Below, one piece after another: positions 3,443 to 17,139 of a DNA stretch of 21,790 nucleotides. The notes under the pieces were generated by a model that saw nothing but the letters and a program-made list of their open reading frames with translations, was not told the DNA's origin and searched no databases. How positions within the stretch are numbered: the first letter of the stretch is position 1; each line of letters begins with the position of its first letter. The position numbers were made by a program, and so were the translations under genes. Source of the DNA: a virus; the IMG/VR virus record IMGVR_UViG_3300042691_018841, positions 1 to 21,790 of that record. One strand, given 5' to 3'.

Positions 3443-4792
3443 TCAACTCGATGTGGTATGAAGCAATTTAATTGTATATGGTCTTCCTTGAGCATCTGTT
3501 GTTTCAATGACGCCATACCCTCGTTCAGGCTTAAAACTGCCTCCACCACGCCACTCCAGCGGTGTACCAGCGTCAACACCTAGATCAATGCCTCGGTGAT
3601 ACGTAGAAGCCCCCGGAGCTGGAGCGCTGCGTGGACCGAACCTCGAAGTAATCGGGTAAGAAACATTCCAATTCTCACCCTGCTGTGTGTACAAAGGCTT
3701 GCCTCCTACATACAGATTTTTAAGAACAGATCTAGCAAACTCAGGGTTTACATACTGCCCGTCTTTGACAACACGCACATCTAAATGAGCCCCCGTGGAC
3801 GGAAAAACATCTTGACTGGGATCAACAACTCTCCCTACAGCTAAAGCTCTACCGGCAGGAGTTGTAGCCATAGCTGGCTGTGTAGCTGCAGGCTGCGCTT
3901 GAGTCTCAGCGACAGCAGCCTGAGCAGGGGCCGGAGTCATTGCAGCAGTTATGTACTCCGAAATAATCCCAGGAACAATACTGCCCAATGTATCTAACTC
4001 ATTAGCACCCCGAGAAGCGGGAATAGCGTCAGCTTCTAGAGCTTTTGTGTATAACGCCATAGCGGTGTCCGACTCACCCATGGCGTCAGCTTGCATAGCA
4101 GCGTCGAAGTAGTTATCCGCTGCAGAACTACGTGGTTGACCAGTCGCTCCAAACACACCTTGAATCCCACGCATGATTTGCTGGAAGTAGTCAGGCGCGG
4201 GTCTCTGCGGTGGAGTTGAGCGAGGCTGAGAAGCTGGAGCTGCCTGTGCTGAACGCGGAGCCGAAGTAGGTCTAGCTGAAGGTCGCTGAGCAGAAGGTTT
4301 CGGTGTGTACTGTTGATAAACGTTTTGCAGCTCAGCCGCACTCTTTACAGGTTGGCCGTAGTAACTACGACCTGCCATAGTAGGCAAAGAAGCCCACTCT
4401 GGAGCCATCGCTGCTAAAGCTTCTCTAGTTAAACCTCGTTGTTGTATATACGCTAAACCTCCTAGATCGCGTAGACGATTACGAGCTAGATCTAAAGCAG
4501 CAATATCTTGATTAACCGGACCAAAATCTCTAAGGCCAAGTTTCTGCGCTTGCTGATTCCAAGTCGGCGTTAAAAATTGATACGCCCCAGCGGCAGAACT
4601 ACCGCGCTCAAAACCACGGGTGCGGATGACACGATCGGGATGTCGACTCAGATCGGAAAATTGACCGCCGCCAAAAAGAGTTCCGTACGGATTTGCAGCT
4701 TTAGCTGTTCCCTCTGCGTACCGAAGAACAGCCAACAGTTTCTGCCCTTCGGGCGTCAGACGAAACTGTTCGAGAAAAGCTCTATCCGACAT
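3443..4792 (-). CDS. Modular virion lysin: GH104-like lytic transglycosylase plus M23-like endopeptidase region
   Basis: A 449-residue protein. Residues about 12-165 resemble the lambda R endolysin family (GH104): AEGT with candidate catalytic Glu27, then FGGGQFSDLSRHP (40-52), SSAAGAYQFL (65-74), a TW, LGLRDFGP, and EWASLP (132-137). These act on peptidoglycan glycan strands. Residues 165-330 are a Pro/Ala/Gln-rich linker around a helical patch. Residues 330-449 carry M23 peptidase-type motifs: ITSRFGPR (381-388), H399-x3-D403 in HRGIDLG, GTPLEW, GYG and a late H445. A block like the usual M23 end, STGAHLDVRVV with H336 and D338, comes before these motifs instead of after, suggesting a permuted order. 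There is no signal peptide, so a virion-associated wall-penetration lysin is more likely than a secreted endolysin. The start is the ATG at 4792. Confidence 0.75.
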   Translation of the reverse strand: MSDRAFLEQFRLTPEGQKLLAVLRYAEGTAKAANPYGTLFGGGQFSDLSRHPDRVIRTRGFERGSSAAGAYQFLTPTWNQQAQKLGLRDFGPVNQDIAALDLARNRLRDLGGLAYIQQRGLTREALAAMAPEWASLPTMAGRSYYGQPVKSAAELQNVYQQYTPKPSAQRPSARPTSAPRSAQAAPASQPRSTPPQRPAPDYFQQIMRGIQGVFGATGQPRSSAADNYFDAAMQADAMGESDTAMALYTKALEADAIPASRGANELDTLGSIVPGIISEYITAAMTPAPAQAAVAETQAQPAATQPAMATTPAGRALAVGRVVDPSQDVFPSTGAHLDVRVVKDGQYVNPEFARSVLKNLYVGGKPLYTQQGENWNVSYPITSRFGPRSAPAPGASTYHRGIDLGVDAGTPLEWRGGGSFKPERGYGVIETTDAQGRPYTIKLLHTTSS

Positions 4793-4853: not shown

Positions 4854-5102
4854 CTATTTACTTTCAGCAGCGTCATCCTCGATTATTTTCACATTAGTAT
4901 CTATACATATACCCATGTCACTCATTACTGTTTTATAAGCTCGTTCACGACACACAAATCTGTAAACAGTAGACCAAAAGAACTGATCTCTATCTTTTTG
5001 ATTGGTTAGAGACTTGGCTTTCGCTCGAATCTGAGTTAACACAAACTCATCCTCAAGCTGCAAGTTACATGAAAGGGTGTGGTCGTGACCGGAAGCGCCC
5101 AT
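4854..5102 (-). CDS. NblA-like protein (phycobilisome degradation), putative
   Basis: An 82-residue protein from the ATG at 5102. Residues 14-60 follow the NblA pattern: LQLEDEF-x-L (14-22, family L-x-LEQEF-x-L), a helix with a central L32, then a helix with D39-x-F41 and the block VYR (46-48)-x3-RE-x-AYK-x-VM (52-60), where the family reads LYRQMM-x-RENMY[KR]-x-LL. NblA proteins are about 60 residues long and recruit the Clp protease to phycobilisomes; several freshwater cyanophages carry nblA. The extra residues are a short N-terminus and an acidic tail (GICIDTNVKIIEDDAAESK). No ribosome binding site is obvious. If correct, it would help dismantle host light-harvesting antennae. The match is by motif spacing and could be coincidental for so short a helical protein. 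Confidence 0.5.
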   Translation of the reverse strand: MGASGHDHTLSCNLQLEDEFVLTQIRAKAKSLTNQKDRDQFFWSTVYRFVCRERAYKTVMSDMGICIDTNVKIIEDDAAESK

Positions 5103-5173: not shown

Positions 5174-5422
5174 TTACCAAGCTTTACAAGACCAGTACCC
5201 CGGAGACAGCTTGCTCTTAGGCTCGTCGCAGCTATGACGGCTGCGGAACGCTTTACGACGATCGGGATCATCGCTGCGATTCTTCATATTCGGATCGCCG
5301 AATCTAACTAAGCGAACCGTGTCACCATCTTTAGCCGCCACGGCAAATTCCTTGCCGCCCTGGACATCCCGTTTGGGAACGTTAAAATTTTTGAAAACTT
5401 CTCCAGCAATTCTAATGGACAT
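5174..5422 (-). CDS. Small conserved phage protein with RFGDPxM and YWSCKxW motifs
   Basis: An 82-residue protein. I take the ATG at 5422 because GGGAG lies 7 nt upstream; an in-frame ATG at 5452 has no such site. Residues 37-46 (RLVRFGDPNM), the following DDP-x-RR-x-AFR-x-RHSC (51-65) and the terminal YWSCKAW (76-82) match a small protein I recall from many tailed phages, usually near head or portal genes. Its function is not known to me. The Cys and His residues could bind metal. Its start codon is interleaved head to head with the start of the GIY-YIG gene (ATGGACAT at 5415-5422), so no promoter can lie between them. Confidence 0.7.
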   Translation of the reverse strand: MSIRIAGEVFKNFNVPKRDVQGGKEFAVAAKDGDTVRLVRFGDPNMKNRSDDPDRRKAFRSRHSCDEPKSKLSPGYWSCKAW

Positions 5423-6101
5423 AAGCTCACTCCCAGACCCTAGCCAGTTCAAGTATAAATGGAAATCTCCTTACGACTTTAATAATACATTCGCTGTGCC
5501 GCACATATACGCTATATCGTATGAAGGAGTAATTAAATACGTAGGTAAAAGTACAGGAACTAGATTTAATTACTACACAGGAGGTGTTATTCCTAATAAA
5601 ATTAAAAAAGTTGGAATAAAAGGTGTACTAGAGTTTGTTACTGAAGAAAGTATTGACGAAGCAGAAGTAAAGTGGATAGCAGAGTTTAAACCACAATTTA
5701 ACATAGCAGCCGGAGGAAGAGGAGGTTTAGTGGGATACTTAAACCCAGCGAAGAGAAAAGAAGTTAGAGAAAAGATAAGCCAAAAAGCTAAAGATAGAAA
5801 ACTCACTAAAGAACATAAAGAAAAATTAAGACAAGCTAAATTAAATAATCCCGTACGAGCACATCTAGGGAAAAAACGATCAATCCAAACAATAACAAAA
5901 ATCAAAGAAACGTACGCAAGGAGAAGAGAGCACAAAAACGATAAAATTGTAGATATGTTGCAGCAAGGATACTATGTAAACGAAATAGTTTCAACACTCA
6001 ACGTATCTACCTCTACCGTGGCAAAGCTTAAAAATCAATTAGGGCTTAAAGGCAAACACAGTAGAGCTAGGAGAAGTCTGAGCCCCCTTCATAAAAATTA
6101 A
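5415..6101 (+). CDS. GIY-YIG homing endonuclease (Seg/I-TevI type)
   Basis: A 228-residue protein from the ATG at 5415. The nuclease domain covers residues 28-100: HIYAI (30-34) for the GIY strand, YVGKS (42-46) for the YIG strand, candidate catalytic Arg50, a metal-binding Glu in DEAEVKWIAEF (E82 or E84) and FN at 95-96. Residues 108-170 are Lys-rich with repeated REKISQKAK- and KEKLRQAK-type units like NUMOD3 DNA-binding modules. Residues 176-212 form a helix-turn-helix (NEIVSTLNVSTSTVAKLKNQ). Such enzymes are free-standing mobile genes that cut intergenic phage sites. Base composition is AT-rich relative to neighbours, consistent with transfer. An upstream in-frame ATG at 5319 would overlap the opposing gene by about 100 nt and adds no recognisable sequence. 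No clear ribosome binding site is seen. Confidence 0.85.
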   Translation: MDISSLPDPSQFKYKWKSPYDFNNTFAVPHIYAISYEGVIKYVGKSTGTRFNYYTGGVIPNKIKKVGIKGVLEFVTEESIDEAEVKWIAEFKPQFNIAAGGRGGLVGYLNPAKRKEVREKISQKAKDRKLTKEHKEKLRQAKLNNPVRAHLGKKRSIQTITKIKETYARRREHKNDKIVDMLQQGYYVNEIVSTLNVSTSTVAKLKNQLGLKGKHSRARRSLSPLHKN

Positions 6102-6458: not shown

Positions 6459-7004
6459 ATGACGCTCTCTGGTATGTTCTCCCAGCAACAAATCACTCCT
6501 AATCAAATGGATACGGATATGAGCGAAGAGAACATGCCGGAGGCGGAAGAAACCACGGGGGCATCGCTTGGCGATCTTATAAACCAAATGGTGTCCCTGT
6601 GCTCTCTTCTAGATAAGTTGTACATGCAGTCGCATTTAATTCACTTAAACATTGAGGGGCCTTTATTTTTTCCGTTGCACGCGTTCTTTAAAGAACAATA
6701 CACGCAACTCGTTGAAGAGTTTGACACCATAGCAGAGTTAATCCGATCTATGGATTATCTGATGCCTATGTGCGAGCGGGGACTAAGCAACGCTTGCCCT
6801 AAATTCATTCACGTTAAATCGAACGACGCTCGCGATATGTCTACGGTATACCTCCGTAACCTTGAGCAGTGCGGAATGATGGCTAAGGAAATTATCGAAG
6901 TTGCTCGGGAAGTAGAAGCACCTGATGCCGAGAATCTATTGGCTAACACCGTCAACTTCTGCTTTAAGTCCTCGTGGATGCTTAAAGCAACTCTGCGCGG
7001 TTAG
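6459..7004 (+). CDS. Dps-like ferritin (DNA-protection, iron-storage type)
   Basis: A 181-residue protein. Residues 42-180 follow the Dps layout: LYMQSHLIHLNIEGPLFF, LHAFFKEQY, then EEFDTIAELIRSMDYLMP and a final helix ending SSWMLKATL. The four ferroxidase ligands are present with Dps spacing: H62, H74, D89 and E93 (12, 15 and 4 apart); the usual W after the first His is L63. Dps dodecamers oxidise and store iron using peroxide and may bind DNA. About 40 N-terminal residues, acidic and Gln-rich, are an unusual extension; ATGs at 6474, 6507 and 6519 are possible shorter starts, and no strong ribosome binding site decides. The stop overlaps the stop of the opposing gene (TTAG at 7001-7004). 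A possible role is protecting phage or host DNA from oxidative damage. Confidence 0.8.
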   Translation: MTLSGMFSQQQITPNQMDTDMSEENMPEAEETTGASLGDLINQMVSLCSLLDKLYMQSHLIHLNIEGPLFFPLHAFFKEQYTQLVEEFDTIAELIRSMDYLMPMCERGLSNACPKFIHVKSNDARDMSTVYLRNLEQCGMMAKEIIEVAREVEAPDAENLLANTVNFCFKSSWMLKATLRG

Positions 7005-7726
7005 ATAAAGTACCAGTCACTCCCGGCACGTATGTACAAACCAGACGGATACGTGCCCGAACTTTCGAGCTGCAAGTAAGCCACGCCGGATTCAATCGTC
7101 ACCGGATCAGGCAGTCCGCTTGCGATCACCGTGGCAATTGAACTGGCACCAGAGGCATAAACAGCGCCGGATGCAAGTGTTGCTGTATCACTAAAAATAG
7201 AACCAGACGCCAAAATAGCACCTGAAGCTAGTGATGCTGTTTCGCTAAACACTGCGCCGGATGCTAGAACAGCACCTGAAGCCAGAATAGCAGTAGTGCT
7301 TGAAGTGGAAGAGACAGCACCAGAAGCTAAAATAGCTCCCGATGCGAGTGTAGCTGTTTCGCTAGTAATAGCCCCAGACGCTAGTACAGCCCCAGAAGCT
7401 AACGTAGCTGTATCCGAAAACCCAGCACTTACTTTAATCCAGTTAACACCATTCCAGACTTTGTAATAGTTATGTACATTTGAATCAGTCCACGCTTCAC
7501 CGACTGAGTTCCCTGAAGCACCTATGTAAATAGCGTTAGGAGCTGTCGTTCCATACCCCGCAGGACCGATCTTACGAACATCGTTATTAGTGTCAAGAAA
7601 ATAGAACCCAGGATCACCTGACCCAGCGCACAAGGCCATTTCTCCAAACTGGAGAATAGTGCCGCTAGGTCTATCTGAATTTAAGTTAGACCGTAGAACA
7701 AGAATAGTTACAGGAGTTGAAGTCAT
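7001..7726 (-). CDS. Tail-fibre-like virion protein with ASG repeats
   Basis: A 241-residue protein whose ATG overlaps the previous stop (ATGA at 7726-7723). Residues 10-60 resemble the head of phage fibre proteins: RP-x-G-x-x-LQFGEMAL, then DPGFYFLDTNNDVRKIGP. Residues 103-204 consist of about five 18-residue units built on [ST]-x-TAxLASGAxLASGA, with eleven ASG triplets in all. The C-terminal 35 residues (YLQLESSGTYPSGLYIRAGS) look like a small beta domain. Such repeats probably form a fibrous, trimeric shaft. The C-terminus of the upstream-encoded protein carries the same ASG and GGxYASG motifs, suggesting that the two interact or share origin. Its stop overlaps that of the Dps-like gene. 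Confidence 0.7.
   Translation of the reverse strand: MTSTPVTILVLRSNLNSDRPSGTILQFGEMALCAGSGDPGFYFLDTNNDVRKIGPAGYGTTAPNAIYIGASGNSVGEAWTDSNVHNYYKVWNGVNWIKVSAGFSDTATLASGAVLASGAITSETATLASGAILASGAVSSTSSTTAILASGAVLASGAVFSETASLASGAILASGSIFSDTATLASGAVYASGASSIATVIASGLPDPVTIESGVAYLQLESSGTYPSGLYIRAGSDWYFI
7115..7420 (-). repeat. Tandem coding repeats (18-residue ASG units)
   Basis: About five degenerate 54-nt units encode the LASGA pairs in the fibre-like protein. The nucleotide copies differ at many third positions while the amino acids stay constant, which indicates selection on the protein. Confidence 0.6.
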
Positions 7727-9258
7727 GTATAGATACCTCCGTTAATAGGAAACGCAATAGCAGAAATTAAGATACCGCTGGCATACTGCCCTCCATCAAG
7801 AGTAGCCACGGGGGCGTGAGGCAGACGGATACCGCTAGCGTAAGTTCCGCCATCATAAACGTCTAAACCGGAAGGAGGTACAAAAGGAGTATATGAGTTA
7901 GTGTCAAAAAAAGTAAGCCCAGAAGCCAAGATAATCGTAGGACTGTCTAATGTTCCAGCGTTAGTTAATTTAGAAAATACATTATACGTATCAGGATTTA
8001 AAACACGAGTAGGCAACTCAGATCTTGTTGGACCGTACCGAAGCCACCATCTGTAATCGCGCTCGCGCTTAAAGAAGTTCATTTGTTTATCGAGATCCCT
8101 GTCGAACATCTCTCGATAAGCAGGGTGCGTAGGCTCGTCGTTAGGCTGAGGCAGCCATTGAGCTACTACATCACCCTGATTAAATTTACGTTGCAAATCC
8201 CACATAGCAGCATAAATATGTTTACACCATTTGGGCTGAAAATAATACAAATTAGGATCTGAGTATGTCTCTTGAGTATAATTAGGAATATTGTATATCT
8301 CGTTTAAATAGATAAAGCCAAAACTACGAGCCCAACCTGGATCGTCTATAGACCTTAAAACTCTATCTCCCTGGCTTTGAGACCCTGCGTCATAGAAACC
8401 AGGCTTCATGTTCAGGACACCTGTGTACGGGTATCTCTTTTTGAGGCTAATTTCATACAGATTGACAGTTTCTCTATTTAAAAAATCAGGACAGTTACAC
8501 TGCGCTTTGAGTTCCGTGGTGAAAAAATCTCCCACGCTGGGAGGACCAGCCGCAGGCACTTGCAGAGTATTAGCGTCAACTACTTGCCAACTCGTTGCTT
8601 CGTCATGACTCAAGAATAAAGTGTTATACAATGACGAATAATTTACATTATTGTCTAAGACACCGTTAAGACCAACCCCAACAACTGTATAGTTTCCAAA
8701 ACCGAACTTACGTTGGTTGCCGCTGGAGTCAATCCTGTTAGCTATAACTTCTCCTTTAAAAGAAGACACAGGTAAACCAAAAGAATTTGAAAACTGAACA
8801 GCATATATTGTGTCTGTGTAGTCAGTAACAGAAGAAACAGCTAACCCGAAATCTTTGAAATTAAACGATCCCTGAGGTTGAATAAACACCGACCATATAC
8901 GCTCGTCATTGCGCGTATTGGGGTACATAAACATAAGGCCAGGTATGTAAGGCCCTATCCCAATCACATTAGTGTAGTAGTACTTGTAGCTATTTTCATA
9001 CGCTTGGTACACCTGCTGGGTGTACATTGACAGTTCATAGCCACGGCGCCATCGGCTCCAAAGTGACGCGTAATCGTAGTCACTAAGAATGCTGAAGTCT
9101 TTTGTACCTACAGCCGGGCGAAACCTTTGTTTAAAAGGCATCGGGCGCGAAAGCTGAAAAGAGGAGTCAGCCCCATGAAAATGGCCGTTCTTTTCTATGC
9201 GTTTTGCGCCCTCATAACGCTTGGGGTTAAAGTTATCCCCAGCGGAGCGTTTGGCCAC
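7723..9258 (-). CDS. Large virion protein with SWIM-like Cys/His motif
   Basis: A 511-residue protein from a GTG at 9258, 3 nt after the previous stop. The content is aromatic-rich and beta-like (Tyr-rich at residues 60-105), typical of virion components. C254-x-C256-PDF and, after an insert of about 85 residues, WC345-K-H347-IYA reproduce the two halves of a SWIM zinc motif (CxC...CxH, often followed by Ile/Ala). Residues 355-430 are charged and aromatic (HPAYREMFDRDLDKQMNFFK). The last 70 residues have ASG and DGGxYASG repeats also seen in the fibre-like protein encoded next. It is likely a tail or adhesion component; exact role unknown. Confidence 0.65.
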   Translation of the reverse strand: MAKRSAGDNFNPKRYEGAKRIEKNGHFHGADSSFQLSRPMPFKQRFRPAVGTKDFSILSDYDYASLWSRWRRGYELSMYTQQVYQAYENSYKYYYTNVIGIGPYIPGLMFMYPNTRNDERIWSVFIQPQGSFNFKDFGLAVSSVTDYTDTIYAVQFSNSFGLPVSSFKGEVIANRIDSSGNQRKFGFGNYTVVGVGLNGVLDNNVNYSSLYNTLFLSHDEATSWQVVDANTLQVPAAGPPSVGDFFTTELKAQCNCPDFLNRETVNLYEISLKKRYPYTGVLNMKPGFYDAGSQSQGDRVLRSIDDPGWARSFGFIYLNEIYNIPNYTQETYSDPNLYYFQPKWCKHIYAAMWDLQRKFNQGDVVAQWLPQPNDEPTHPAYREMFDRDLDKQMNFFKRERDYRWWLRYGPTRSELPTRVLNPDTYNVFSKLTNAGTLDSPTIILASGLTFFDTNSYTPFVPPSGLDVYDGGTYASGIRLPHAPVATLDGGQYASGILISAIAFPINGGIYT

Positions 9259-12296: not shown

Positions 12297-12917
12297 CTAT
12301 CGCCAATTAGTTGCAAAATAAATTCTATCTGCACGAGACATCGTAGGAGCGCCAGGTAAAGCCTGAACATAAGATGCACCGCTACGTTCAAACCGATAGC
12401 GATTCACCATCGGATTCTTGTAGTTAGCTACATACAACATTTGAGCTAAACGATCAGTCTCAAAGATATAGTTTTCTCTCCAGATTTTTGCAGTCTCCTG
12501 TTTATCCTGAACGCTAATTGTACGGCTCACGTCACCCAGAATAATTTCCTGGCGACTGGTGCCGCGCCCCCCAGCAAGCTCGGAAATACGCTCAGCCTCT
12601 TCGCAGCGTTCGATTTGCTGAACGATCTTGTCAAAATAGTACTGGCTTGGGATGCTCGTGCAAGCCAACTCAAGACGAGCGTAGTCACCAGCAGGAACTG
12701 TCGCCACGTTATACCCAAGGTGATACGTAACCCGACTGAAGTTAAAATCGTCTAATTTATAACCAAATACCTGACCGGGATTTCGGCCAATCTGGTTTAA
12801 CGCAGCATATACAATCTCGCGCTTAGTCCTATCGGTAGTCGTAGGCTGAGTTACGACCCCCTGTTGAGCTAGATAGCTGTAGATCTGCTCTAGTTGTTGA
12901 ACCGTTAAGTCAGCCAC
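12297..12917 (-). CDS. Neck- or head-completion-like protein, paralogue 1
   Basis: A 206-residue protein from a GTG at 12917 with GGAG 5 nt upstream. It is a clear paralogue of the protein encoded immediately upstream (12943-13575). Both share L-x-QIxxYLxxQGV, VYAAxN, LDDxNFxRVxYHLxYN, DYARLxxAC-x-x-IPSxxY, QQEIILG-like RQEIILG, a TWRENY/IWRENY block with xDRLxxxLxVxNYKxP, and a C-terminal F-x-x-x-WR. The duplicates diverged in the linkers. Mainly helical, with a conserved Cys-Glu pair in RCEEAE. Position after the capsid genes suggests a head-tail connector or a virion protein, not an enzyme. Confidence 0.65.
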   Translation of the reverse strand: MADLTVQQLEQIYSYLAQQGVVTQPTTTDRTKREIVYAALNQIGRNPGQVFGYKLDDFNFSRVTYHLGYNVATVPAGDYARLELACTSIPSQYYFDKIVQQIERCEEAERISELAGGRGTSRQEIILGDVSRTISVQDKQETAKIWRENYIFETDRLAQMLYVANYKNPMVNRYRFERSGASYVQALPGAPTMSRADRIYFATNWR

Positions 12918-12942: not shown

Positions 12943-13575
12943 TCAACGCCAGGAGTTGAAAAAGTACAGATCGTCAAACCGGGCAGGATCAACAGGCCCC
13001 GGAAGACTTTGAATGAAATCACCCTCCGTGGCAATGAAACGTGATTCAGCGATAACTGGATCTTTATAGTTTACAACGTGCAAGATCGCGGACAACCTGT
13101 CGCACTCGTACAGGTAGTTTTCCCTCCACGTCCGCATGATCTTGCGGTTGTCCTGAATCGTAATCGTACGATTTAGCACCTCATCACCTTGGCCCAAGAT
13201 AATTTCCTGTTGGCTTGCGGCCCGGTTGGACGCCAACTCTGTGTAAATCTCAGCGGTCTCGCAGCGCTGTATCTGATTTATAGTTTTAGAGTAATAAAAG
13301 TCACTAGGTATATTGTTACAAGCTTCTATAAGCCGAGCATAATCAGCAGGGCTTACAGCAGAGATATTGTAATTTAAGTGATAACAAACGCGCTCAAAAT
13401 TGTAGTCATCAAGCGCAGAAACCTTTAGCTGCGGTGTTCCCCGAAACAGGGAGTTAACCGCAGCATATACAGTGTCTAAACGGGCCGAGTCTGTAAAACT
13501 GCCGTCAAAGATGACGCCTTGCTCGCGCAAGTAGCGTTCAATCTGCGCAAGTTCTTCAGCTAAGAGTTGCGCCAC
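12943..13575 (-). CDS. Neck- or head-completion-like protein, paralogue 2
   Basis: A 210-residue protein from a GTG at 13575. It is paralogous to the gene 25 nt downstream (12297-12917) along its whole length. It differs mainly by a short insert (GQGDEVLNR, about 127-135) and in the region before LDDYNFERVCYHL. It keeps WRENYLYECDRLSAILHVVNYK and ends in FFNSWR. The pair probably arose by tandem duplication in an ancestor, since nucleotide identity looks low while the protein signature stays. Two related subunits suggest a hetero-oligomeric ring or a split of function in the neck. Confidence 0.65.
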   Translation of the reverse strand: MAQLLAEELAQIERYLREQGVIFDGSFTDSARLDTVYAAVNSLFRGTPQLKVSALDDYNFERVCYHLNYNISAVSPADYARLIEACNNIPSDFYYSKTINQIQRCETAEIYTELASNRAASQQEIILGQGDEVLNRTITIQDNRKIMRTWRENYLYECDRLSAILHVVNYKDPVIAESRFIATEGDFIQSLPGPVDPARFDDLYFFNSWR

Positions 13576-13621: not shown

Positions 13622-14095
13622 TCACTCGACGTAAGCAATATCTCCTTCTAACACAGAGTCCCAGTCAATGTTAGAAATTGACTTCAGTTGATCGAGTTTT
13701 GAGAAACGCTCACCAGGCAAAGACTGCTGAAGTTCTTTAATTTCGATAGCGGTTTTCATCCCGATACCTTTAAGAACCTGGGTCAGCAGCTCGGGGGTCG
13801 CCGAGTTGATGTTGATCCGAGTCAATGCCGGAACCTCAGGCCGAACTATTTGCCGACCACGCCTGCGCTTAACGGGTTTTTCGCCCTCCTCCACTTCTAC
13901 ATCTTTTTCAGCGATCTGGTTCTTATGAGCAAAGAAAACCTTACCAGTTGTCAGGGATTTAACCATAAAGTACTCACCGTCATCATGAGTACTGATAATG
14001 GAGACTTTCACACCGTTTGGCGTGAAGGTGTACTCCCGCGTGGCGGCGACTGTCATTATGAAAGCACTGACTAAGTAAAGTATAGCGCCAAGCAT
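13622..14095 (-). CDS. Helix-hairpin-helix protein, possibly membrane-anchored
   Basis: A 157-residue protein if the ATG at 14095 is used. Residues 1-18 would be a hydrophobic segment (MLGAILYLVSAFIMTVAA). Residues 28-60 look like a small SH3-type beta unit (NGVKVSIISTHDDGEYFMV). Residues 70-85 are a basic linker (KRRRGR). Residues 93-147 are a ComEA-type helix-hairpin-helix pair: RININSATPELLTQVLKGIG and FSKLDQLKSI-x-NID. It likely binds DNA non-specifically. The start is uncertain: 14095 follows the T-run of a terminator and has only GAGG, from the terminator stem, 10 nt upstream. An ATG at 14056 would drop the hydrophobic segment and lies behind a possible -10 box (TATACT, 14084-14079). 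Confidence 0.65.
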   Translation of the reverse strand: MLGAILYLVSAFIMTVAATREYTFTPNGVKVSIISTHDDGEYFMVKSLTTGKVFFAHKNQIAEKDVEVEEGEKPVKRRRGRQIVRPEVPALTRININSATPELLTQVLKGIGMKTAIEIKELQQSLPGERFSKLDQLKSISNIDWDSVLEGDIAYVE

Positions 14096-14122
14096 AAAAA
14101 AACCCCCTCGTGTGAGGGGGCT
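14096..14122 (-). terminator. Intrinsic terminator of the capsid transcription unit
   Basis: On the minus strand CCCCCTC, a short ACAC-type loop, GAGGGGG and seven T residues. It lies 24-50 nt after the stop of the 289-residue virion protein and directly before the helix-hairpin-helix gene. It would end the highly expressed capsid transcripts. Confidence 0.85.
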
Positions 14123-14145
14123 TGAAATCCACAAACTGAGTGCGA

Positions 14146-15030: not shown

Positions 15031-17139
15031 TCAAGCGTTGAAGGAATAAGCGATGGTGGCGAAATCAGCGTTCAGGAGTTCGAAACCTGCGTACAGGCTC
15101 CAAATCATCATGATAAATCTGCTGAAGTCGTCGTTATTATTCAACAACACTTGAGCGTTGTTGCCGCCGATACCGACACCGACGCTTTGGGGACCGAAGA
15201 ACATGCCGATGGCAGTCTCGTACGAAGCGGCAGTAGAAGCGATCGTGGCAGTTTGATTCTGCGAGGGCATGTTTGTGCTCTCGAAAAATCTAACGCCTTC
15301 GAACACAAATCCGGTAGGCATGATCGGCTCACCGGCCACAAAAGTAGCCTGGCCGAAACCCTGACCCATGTAGATAGCAGCGTTAGGCTGCATCGAAGAC
15401 ATGAGAGGATTGATCTGACCGTTGCCAGGATAGCGAGCAACTTCACGGAAGTCACTATTCTGTCTCAGGTGCATAAGGAAGGTCGGATCGCATACACAGC
15501 GATAGAAACCATCCTGATACGTCGGGACGTTTCTCTTGCGCAGAGACTTAACCACGCGGAGAAGATCGTCCTTAACGTCGAACTTGGCTTGCTCGGCGTT
15601 AGCGTACGAAAGAGCACCAACTGCAAGATCACCAGGGTAGTAGTAACCACCTTGGGTGTCAGAAGATTGACCCTTCGAAACAGCTTTCAGAAGTTCATTA
15701 ATGAACACTCTGTCGCGCCATCTTCTATAGTCGTCTAACAGAGTCAGAGAACCAATAGATTGATGGAAGGCCGTCAGATTACCAGTGTCCAGCAGTAAAC
15801 GCTGTGCGGTAATCAGGGTCTCTCTAGCAATCTTGAAAGTGCTAGGTTGAGTAGGATCGCTAGGATCAGCAGGACCTGTGTACTCACGAAGAGTTACAAG
15901 AACTTTGTCCTTGACAATGTTCCTGCTGTTCGCAGTACCAATGGTTTGCTCTGCAGTGCGCTCACGAGATTCTTTAGAGCCAGGATTGCCCCAGAATCTG
16001 TATCTGTCCAGCTGCACAGTCTGGCCGGGTTGTTTAGCCGATTACACTCTTACTTAGAGTGCCGCAAAGCTCTTTATCTTTGCGTAACATTACCTTAAGG
16101 ACGGTAATGAGTAGACTATATCATCACCCACGGCGTTATCCGTTTGGGTGCTCCGCGCTCGTGTCACCTTATCGGCTTCTAAAGCAAGTTTGCTTCGGTC
16201 AGCCTCGCTCCATTTTGACTTTCCTCGATTGGTTCGAGTGTCGTAACGGAGGTCGAATTTGTAGCTCATAGCTTTACACCCGTATGGTTTTAAAACCTCT
16301 ACGAATTGCCTTGCGTTTCGCCCGTTTCCTCGAAGATTCCAGAGATTTGGATTCTTCTTAGCCATCGGTAAACGCGGAGTAAGTGAAGCTCCTGTAAGGC
16401 TTTCTATCCAGTCTGATACAACTAAAGCTGCATCATAAGGGACGTATAAAGCTAACTCTACAATACGCTCCCTAATATAAGGTTCTCCGGTCCGCGTGGA
16501 CTGACCACGCTTGCGAAGATGCAGGTTTCCGTCGTCCATGTAAAGGACAGCTAAACCTTCTAGACCTATATCTCTCAAAAAAGTAGCCGTAAAAACTTTC
16601 TTTCCCTGAGGATACAGTTCCCTATAAATAGGCAGCAGTAGCTCCTGTTGATTTGACCACCACTGACAGGCAGCAAATGTACCAGTCTGACAGTCAGCTT
16701 CCCTGTCTTTTATGGGTTGTTTTATGTCAAAGATACGATTGAGTCTTCCAACTTTCCAGCGGAGAAACTCAAACTGTTTCTTAGAGTGACTTATGTGAAG
16801 ACCAGGGTAAGTCGTCACAAGCCGTAAACAGCCGTCACCTAAACAAACCCCTTTAAGAAAGGAGCGGTCGCTTCGAGAGAGCATTCGAGCAGTGTTAGTC
16901 GTTGAACCTTCCAATCATTTCTGATTGGCTTGGCTGCTGATTAGCCTCCCTCTCGGGTCCGGCTTTCCAGCAATTCACGGAGTTGTCAGCTAGGATTTCG
17001 CCTAGCAGTTCCCTAGCTTACTACAAGCTCAGAAATCATGAACAACCACGGGCTCTGCCGCCATCTCAACCACATACGCGGGATGAGGACGATAGAGTTC
17101 TGCACCGAGCAGCTTCGGAAAATCATTGTCGACGAACAA
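15031..17139 (-). CDS. Major capsid protein, split by a group I intron; join(15031..16037, 17031..17139)
   Basis: Exon 1 (17139-17031) starts at TTG with GGAGG 8 nt upstream and encodes MFVDNDFPKLLGAELY, then R-x-HPAYVVEMAAEPVVVHDF. Exon 2 (16037-15031) continues KQPGQTVQLDRYRFWG. Splicing after the T at 17031 recreates a TCT serine codon, giving one frame of 371 residues. The joined N-terminus, with hydrophobic AAEPVVV followed by G-x-TVQLDR-type beta strands, resembles N4-gp56-family major capsid proteins, and the C-terminus (FSRFIMMIWSLYAGFELLN) is the usual hydrophobic end. Unspliced reading meets TGA at the exon border, so unspliced RNA gives only a 36-residue product. It lies downstream of portal-like and scaffold-like genes and directly upstream of a decoration-like gene. 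Family naming is by recollection; the capsid role is well supported by context. Confidence 0.75.
16038..17030 (-). mobile_element. Group I intron in the major capsid gene
   Basis: A 993-nt intron. The 5' splice site follows exon U 17031: exon UUUCU pairs with GGGAA of the internal guide, forming P1 with a U-G pair, and the P1 extension is a perfect AGCTT/AAGCT hairpin. The P element reads AATTGCTGGAAA (16975-16964), Q reads GCAGCCAAG (16937-16929), and the R element TTCAACGACTA carries GACTA (16900-16896), which pairs with TAGTC of the S element (16118-16114) to form P7. P9-type hairpins (CGCAAAG/CTTTGCG and CACTCT/AGAGTG) precede the terminal G at 16038. The endonuclease gene occupies the P8 loop region. 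The exact splice points are inferred from frame and pairing. Confidence 0.85.
16090..16884 (-). CDS. LAGLIDADG homing endonuclease encoded in the intron
   Basis: A 264-residue protein from the ATG at 16884; a TTG at 16914 would start inside the R element of the intron core. Two LAGLIDADG-type helices are visible: FLKGVCLGDGCL (residues 9-20) and GLEGLAVLYMDDGNL (about 112-126), with the acidic catalytic residues in GDG and DDG. Between and after them are basic, aromatic DNA-contacting segments (HSKKQFEFLRWKVGRL, HLRKRGQSTR). The C-terminus (GDDIVYSLPSL) is encoded by the intron's S element and P9 region. The enzyme would cut an intronless capsid gene and copy the intron into it. No ribosome binding site is obvious. 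Confidence 0.88.
   Translation of the reverse strand: MLSRSDRSFLKGVCLGDGCLRLVTTYPGLHISHSKKQFEFLRWKVGRLNRIFDIKQPIKDREADCQTGTFAACQWWSNQQELLLPIYRELYPQGKKVFTATFLRDIGLEGLAVLYMDDGNLHLRKRGQSTRTGEPYIRERIVELALYVPYDAALVVSDWIESLTGASLTPRLPMAKKNPNLWNLRGNGRNARQFVEVLKPYGCKAMSYKFDLRYDTRTNRGKSKWSEADRSKLALEADKVTRARSTQTDNAVGDDIVYSLPSLR

Follow-up and report, generated by a model that had tools for sequence, protein, structure and literature searches.

NblA is a bacterial protein that triggers the dismantling of the light-harvesting antenna. A conserved motif near its N-terminus has been reported to bind ClpC, and a second motif near its C-terminus to bind phycobiliproteins (PMC4103541). Phage-borne nblA genes are known from Ma-LMM01, MaMV-DC, PaV-LD, marine podoviruses, S-TIM5 and S-SCSM1, the latter having been identified by HHpred, and for some of them pigment loss was shown (PMC9602691). 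A marine survey attributed about 3% of the cyanophage content to the group of phage S-EIV1 and gave only hli and ptoX as photosynthesis genes of this group (PMC5332604). No nblA description for the S-EIV1 group was found in the literature searched, which did not extend to the original S-EIV1 paper or to Nadel 2019. Phage nblA genes are thus already known; for the branch described here, which we term A2, no description was found, and its co-occurrence with a second NblA-like family, A5, is a new observation.

The window, that is the whole stretch of DNA analysed, is a virus record of 21,790 bases. Its major head protein is 66.5% identical to the homologue of Synechococcus phage S-EIV1 over 99% of the protein. 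S-EIV1 was the only relative of the head protein found in phage records, while at least 598 relatives were confirmed in viral contigs. Based on this relationship the window is a fragment of an S-EIV1-lineage cyanophage genome, and the host is therefore very likely a phycobilisome-bearing cyanobacterium of the Synechococcus type. Such a host had been proposed from the NblA-like motifs; the lineage of the phage supports it independently of the NblA reading. Our best explanation of the A2 open reading frame (Table 1) is that it encodes a distant, elongated NblA homologue that would work as NblA does, to which we assign a probability of about 0.68.

Table 1. Coordinates of the A2 gene, its segments and the compared genes; positions are those of the window unless an accession is given.
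Feature	Position	Strand	Remark
NblA-like ORF (family A2)	4854..5102	-	ATG start, 82 aa
LQLEDEF, residues 14-20	5043..5063	-	counterpart of NblA N-terminal L-S-L-E-Q-Q-F
RERAYKTVM, residues 52-60	4923..4949	-	counterpart of NblA C-terminal R-E-x-x-Y-K
Acidic C-terminal tail and stop, residues 75-82	4854..4880	-	beyond the NblA core, from alignments
Upstream neighbour, phrog_7595 (unknown function)	5174..5422	-	E 1.2e-17
Lysin, muramidase-like N-terminal and metallo-endopeptidase-like C-terminal part	3443..4792	-	downstream of A2
Major head protein	15031..16017	-	66.5% identical to Synechococcus phage S-EIV1
AHV82245 (S-EIV1)	KJ410740.1 73902-74222 (L084:32915-33235)		NblA-like with long acidic tail

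The reading frame spans positions 4854-5102 exactly as originally predicted, on the minus strand, and encodes the protein MGASGHDHTLSCNLQLEDEFVLTQIRAKAKSLTNQKDRDQFFWSTVYRFVCRERAYKTVMSDMGICIDTNVKIIEDDAAESK, in which the motifs L-Q-LEDEF-V-L and VYRFVCRERAYKTVM are indeed present. A copy with 98% identity was found on a contig of 65.7 kb, the codon changes between both copies being 11 silent and 2 replacement changes. A second contig carries a copy with 48% identity, and many further contigs carry relatives at 38-59% identity. A profile scan of viral contigs for family A2 found 130 relatives, of which 80 were kept. When residue conservation was computed on 49 diverse members, L14, E17, D18, L22, A29, W43, E53, R54, A55, V59 and G64 were invariant in 49/49, and the median dN/dS among close A2 pairs was 0.06. 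The near-identical copy, the many relatives, the invariant columns and the low dN/dS together show that A2 is a genuine gene evolving under purifying selection and not a chance reading frame.

Outside this set of contigs, the window protein as a single query found no relative among 50,697 phage records, and a pattern scan of bacterial genomes found no relative of the window gene. Weak tblastn matches in phages were mostly located inside uvsW helicases and were rejected as chance, as was a match of the A2 profile in S-SCSM1 (E 0.04) inside a lectin gene. Among 292 cyanobacterial genomes the profile gave one partial match (E 0.003), which contained internal stops and was likewise attributed to chance.

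The resemblance of A2 to cyanobacterial NblA (PF04485; 1OJH, 3CS5) extends over a two-helix core, predicted in A2, an L-x-L-E-x-x-F start and [RK]-E-x-x-[YF] near the C-terminus followed by a conserved Gly, with a spacing that is equal within one residue. In the N-terminal LQLEDEF the Leu, Leu, Glu and Phe of the NblA motif are kept, and the Gln is changed to an invariant Asp. In the C-terminal segment R52 is found in 82% of the A2 members (Lys in 14%), E53 in 100%, Y56 in 86% (Phe in 14%) and K57 in 94%. Using Nostoc numbering, Leu8, Leu10, Glu11, Phe14, Arg45, Glu46, Tyr49 and Gly58 are wholly or largely kept, whereas the NblA-invariant Gln12 is replaced by Asp throughout and Trp57 is not retained. 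The motif spacing had been proposed to match that of NblA, which holds apart from one extra loop residue in the window protein; this residue is absent from many A2 relatives, leaving their spacing exactly as in NblA. The protein is also longer than NblA, as expected from the original prediction (82 versus about 60 aa), with about 20 extra residues including the acidic tail.

On its own, the window protein gave no match to Pfam or PHROGs, and its sole match in NCBIfam is not NblA; PHROGs gave no convincing family for A2 or A5. However, Pfam NblA (PF04485) was matched by 34/49 A2 members with a best E of 5.1e-4 (12/20 in a first A2 set), while the Pfam runner-up was matched by 8 members at E 0.015 or worse. 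Homology to PF04485 was detectable across the whole 50-column domain in a single register. Scores of the matches listed ranged between 14.5 and 20.9 bits and were all below the curated cut-off of 25 bits. When the A2 profile was searched against 177,635 PDB sequences, NblA 1OJH ranked first (E 0.058 and 0.077) and NblA 3CS5 third. An hhalign comparison of A2 with 25 cyanobacterial NblA sequences gave a probability of 71% (E 3.7e-5, 54 columns). The control was a profile-profile comparison of NblA with each of 133 ORF families taken from the same phage loci: A2 came first (probability 36, E 3.7e-4), the runner-up reaching a probability of 4.4 (E 0.009).

We also scored shuffled decoys derived from known NblA proteins. 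With the A2 profile, the NblA of PaV-LD and an S. elongatus-type NblA outscored all 1,880 scored decoys; those of Ma-LMM01, S-SCSM1 and S-EIV1 did not rise above them. With a cyanobacterial NblA profile the window protein outscored all but 1 of 1,915 decoys. Like A2, the proteins of Ma-LMM01 and PaV-LD are cyanophage-borne NblA homologues, but they score above the Pfam cut-off (E 1.9e-14 and 1.2e-12) and belong to other phage lineages with other hosts. The NblA-like genes of marine cyanopodoviruses, S-TIM5 and S-SCSM1 are divergent as A2 is and were reported as distant homologues (PMC9602691), although the S-SCSM1 protein (54 aa) was not detected by the A2 profile. While each of these comparisons is weak individually, in combination the sequence evidence favours homology.

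AlphaFold runs on the window protein with 20 and with 49 family sequences predicted helices at residues 16-30 and 35-63, forming a helix-turn-helix hairpin. This agrees with the two-helix core anticipated for an NblA, the pLDDT being 83-94 at residues 21-50 with a mean of only 68-69. A Foldseek search of two predicted models against the PDB, run without a positive control, returned nothing significant and retrieved no NblA. The identification as NblA is thus partly supported, as a distant homology, by Pfam, PDB sequences, profile-profile comparison and the helix prediction.

Since Foldseek found no NblA and A2 has features foreign to NblA (a conserved W43, an RDQ stretch and a GxxVDTN tail), we considered that A2 might be a small helical phage protein with a function unrelated to NblA, such as a lysis regulator or a virion-assembly accessory, whose resemblance is convergent. 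The position of A2 between a conserved gene and a lysin in most relatives would fit such a role: a phrog_7595-like gene is located within 700 bp upstream in 64/80 related loci, and a muramidase-like gene follows downstream in 49/80. In the window the start of the phrog_7595 gene is probably an internal ATG near 5422, and A2 sits among virion and lysis genes, in agreement with its predicted placement in the virion-gene half. Convergence is nevertheless unlikely, as independent profile searches, covering families or sequences by the tens of thousands, picked out NblA, and a gene recognisable as NblA-like is present in S-EIV1 itself in a comparable setting. There a related upstream gene and a lysozyme gene are followed by AHV82245, which is annotated as hypothetical yet matches Pfam NblA at E 5.9e-4. 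This protein of the same phage lineage is NblA-like, has 106 aa and an acidic tail, and its gene adjoins that of the lysozyme; it differs from A2 in belonging to another sequence branch and in lying on the opposite side of the lysozyme gene.

During whole-record searches with Pfam NblA, additional matches distant from A2 were found in several relatives. They represent the second, clearer NblA-like family A5 (loci L286-L291 and L303-L382), in which 22/25 members match Pfam NblA with a best E of 1.6e-10 and hhalign gives 92% against NblA. We searched profiles of both families in 19 metagenomic contigs of this lineage with sizes of 61-87 kb: A2 was present in 19/19, A5 in 17/19 and both together in 17/19. 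One of the two contigs devoid of A5 is the near twin of the window, and these two may be incomplete sequences. On linear records A2 and A5 are 21-64 kb apart, mostly 25-30 kb. In A5 the Glu-Gln-x-Phe is invariant and the R-E-x-x-Y-K segment is lacking; in A2 Arg/Lys-Glu and Tyr/Phe-Lys are kept and Glu-Asp replaces Glu-Gln.

These complementary halves of the NblA signature suggest that A2 and A5 act as a heterodimer or as adaptors for two targets. A2 would then be an NblA homologue that is inactive alone and forms half of a phage NblA pair, a refinement we put forward tentatively. A5 would supply the N-terminal E-Q-x-F and A2 the C-terminal R-E-x-x-Y-K, either in one heterodimer or on different phycobiliproteins, a division of labour that is conceivable but doubtful. 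Besides the complementary motif halves and the co-occurrence in 17 of the 19 contigs, the NblA1/NblA2 heterodimer described in Synechocystis (PMC12638213) speaks for a pair. Against it, just one NblA-like gene is seen in S-EIV1; on the contigs behind L001 and L024, which may be incomplete, only A2 is seen; the A2 and A5 genes are not adjacent; and their profiles match each other only weakly. The broader picture is speculative: a widespread cyanophage lineage would dismantle the antenna with a pair of NblA-type adaptors that evolved separately and either form a heterodimer or serve different phycobiliproteins. S-EIV1-like phages are widespread; two conserved NblA-like genes per genome, if true, would place antenna dismantling at the core of the infection programme of this lineage, and the pair would offer a natural test of the role of each NblA half.

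Returning to A2 as a distant NblA homologue, the homology itself is likely, and from it we infer an adaptor function. The helix hairpin would dimerise into a four-helix bundle, the C-terminal helix with the RERAYK segment would contact phycobiliprotein and the N-terminal motif would deliver the phycobilisome to ClpC, a protease of the host. If A2 works in this way, the antenna would be degraded during infection, which would make amino acids available and ease light stress. An NblA-shaped A2 might instead occupy ClpC or the phycobilisomes and thereby block antenna breakdown by the host, given that the N-terminal motif is altered (Gln to Asp) and the C-terminal segment is kept. Such a decoy or inhibitor is highly improbable, as those phage NblA proteins that have been characterised promote the degradation of the antenna (PMC9602691).

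Further features were noticed in the window. A homing-endonuclease-like ORF is located at 5319-6101 (+) (phrog_314, E 9.5e-16), its first possible start overlapping the phrog_7595 gene on the opposite strand, and the gene of the major head protein has a LAGLIDADG homing-endonuclease-like ORF directly upstream, at 16090-16914 (-). A helix-hairpin-helix domain (PF12836, E 4.2e-6) was recognised in a virion-region protein encoded at 13622-14134 (-), whose N-terminus is hydrophobic. A tandem pair of paralogues is found at 12297-12917 and 12943-13575 (-), both matching phrog_29158 of unknown function. The minor-tail-like protein encoded at 7001-7726 (-) (phrog_356) shows repeated LASGAV/ASGAI motifs, and the adjoining protein encoded at 7723-9258 contains similar ASG motifs.
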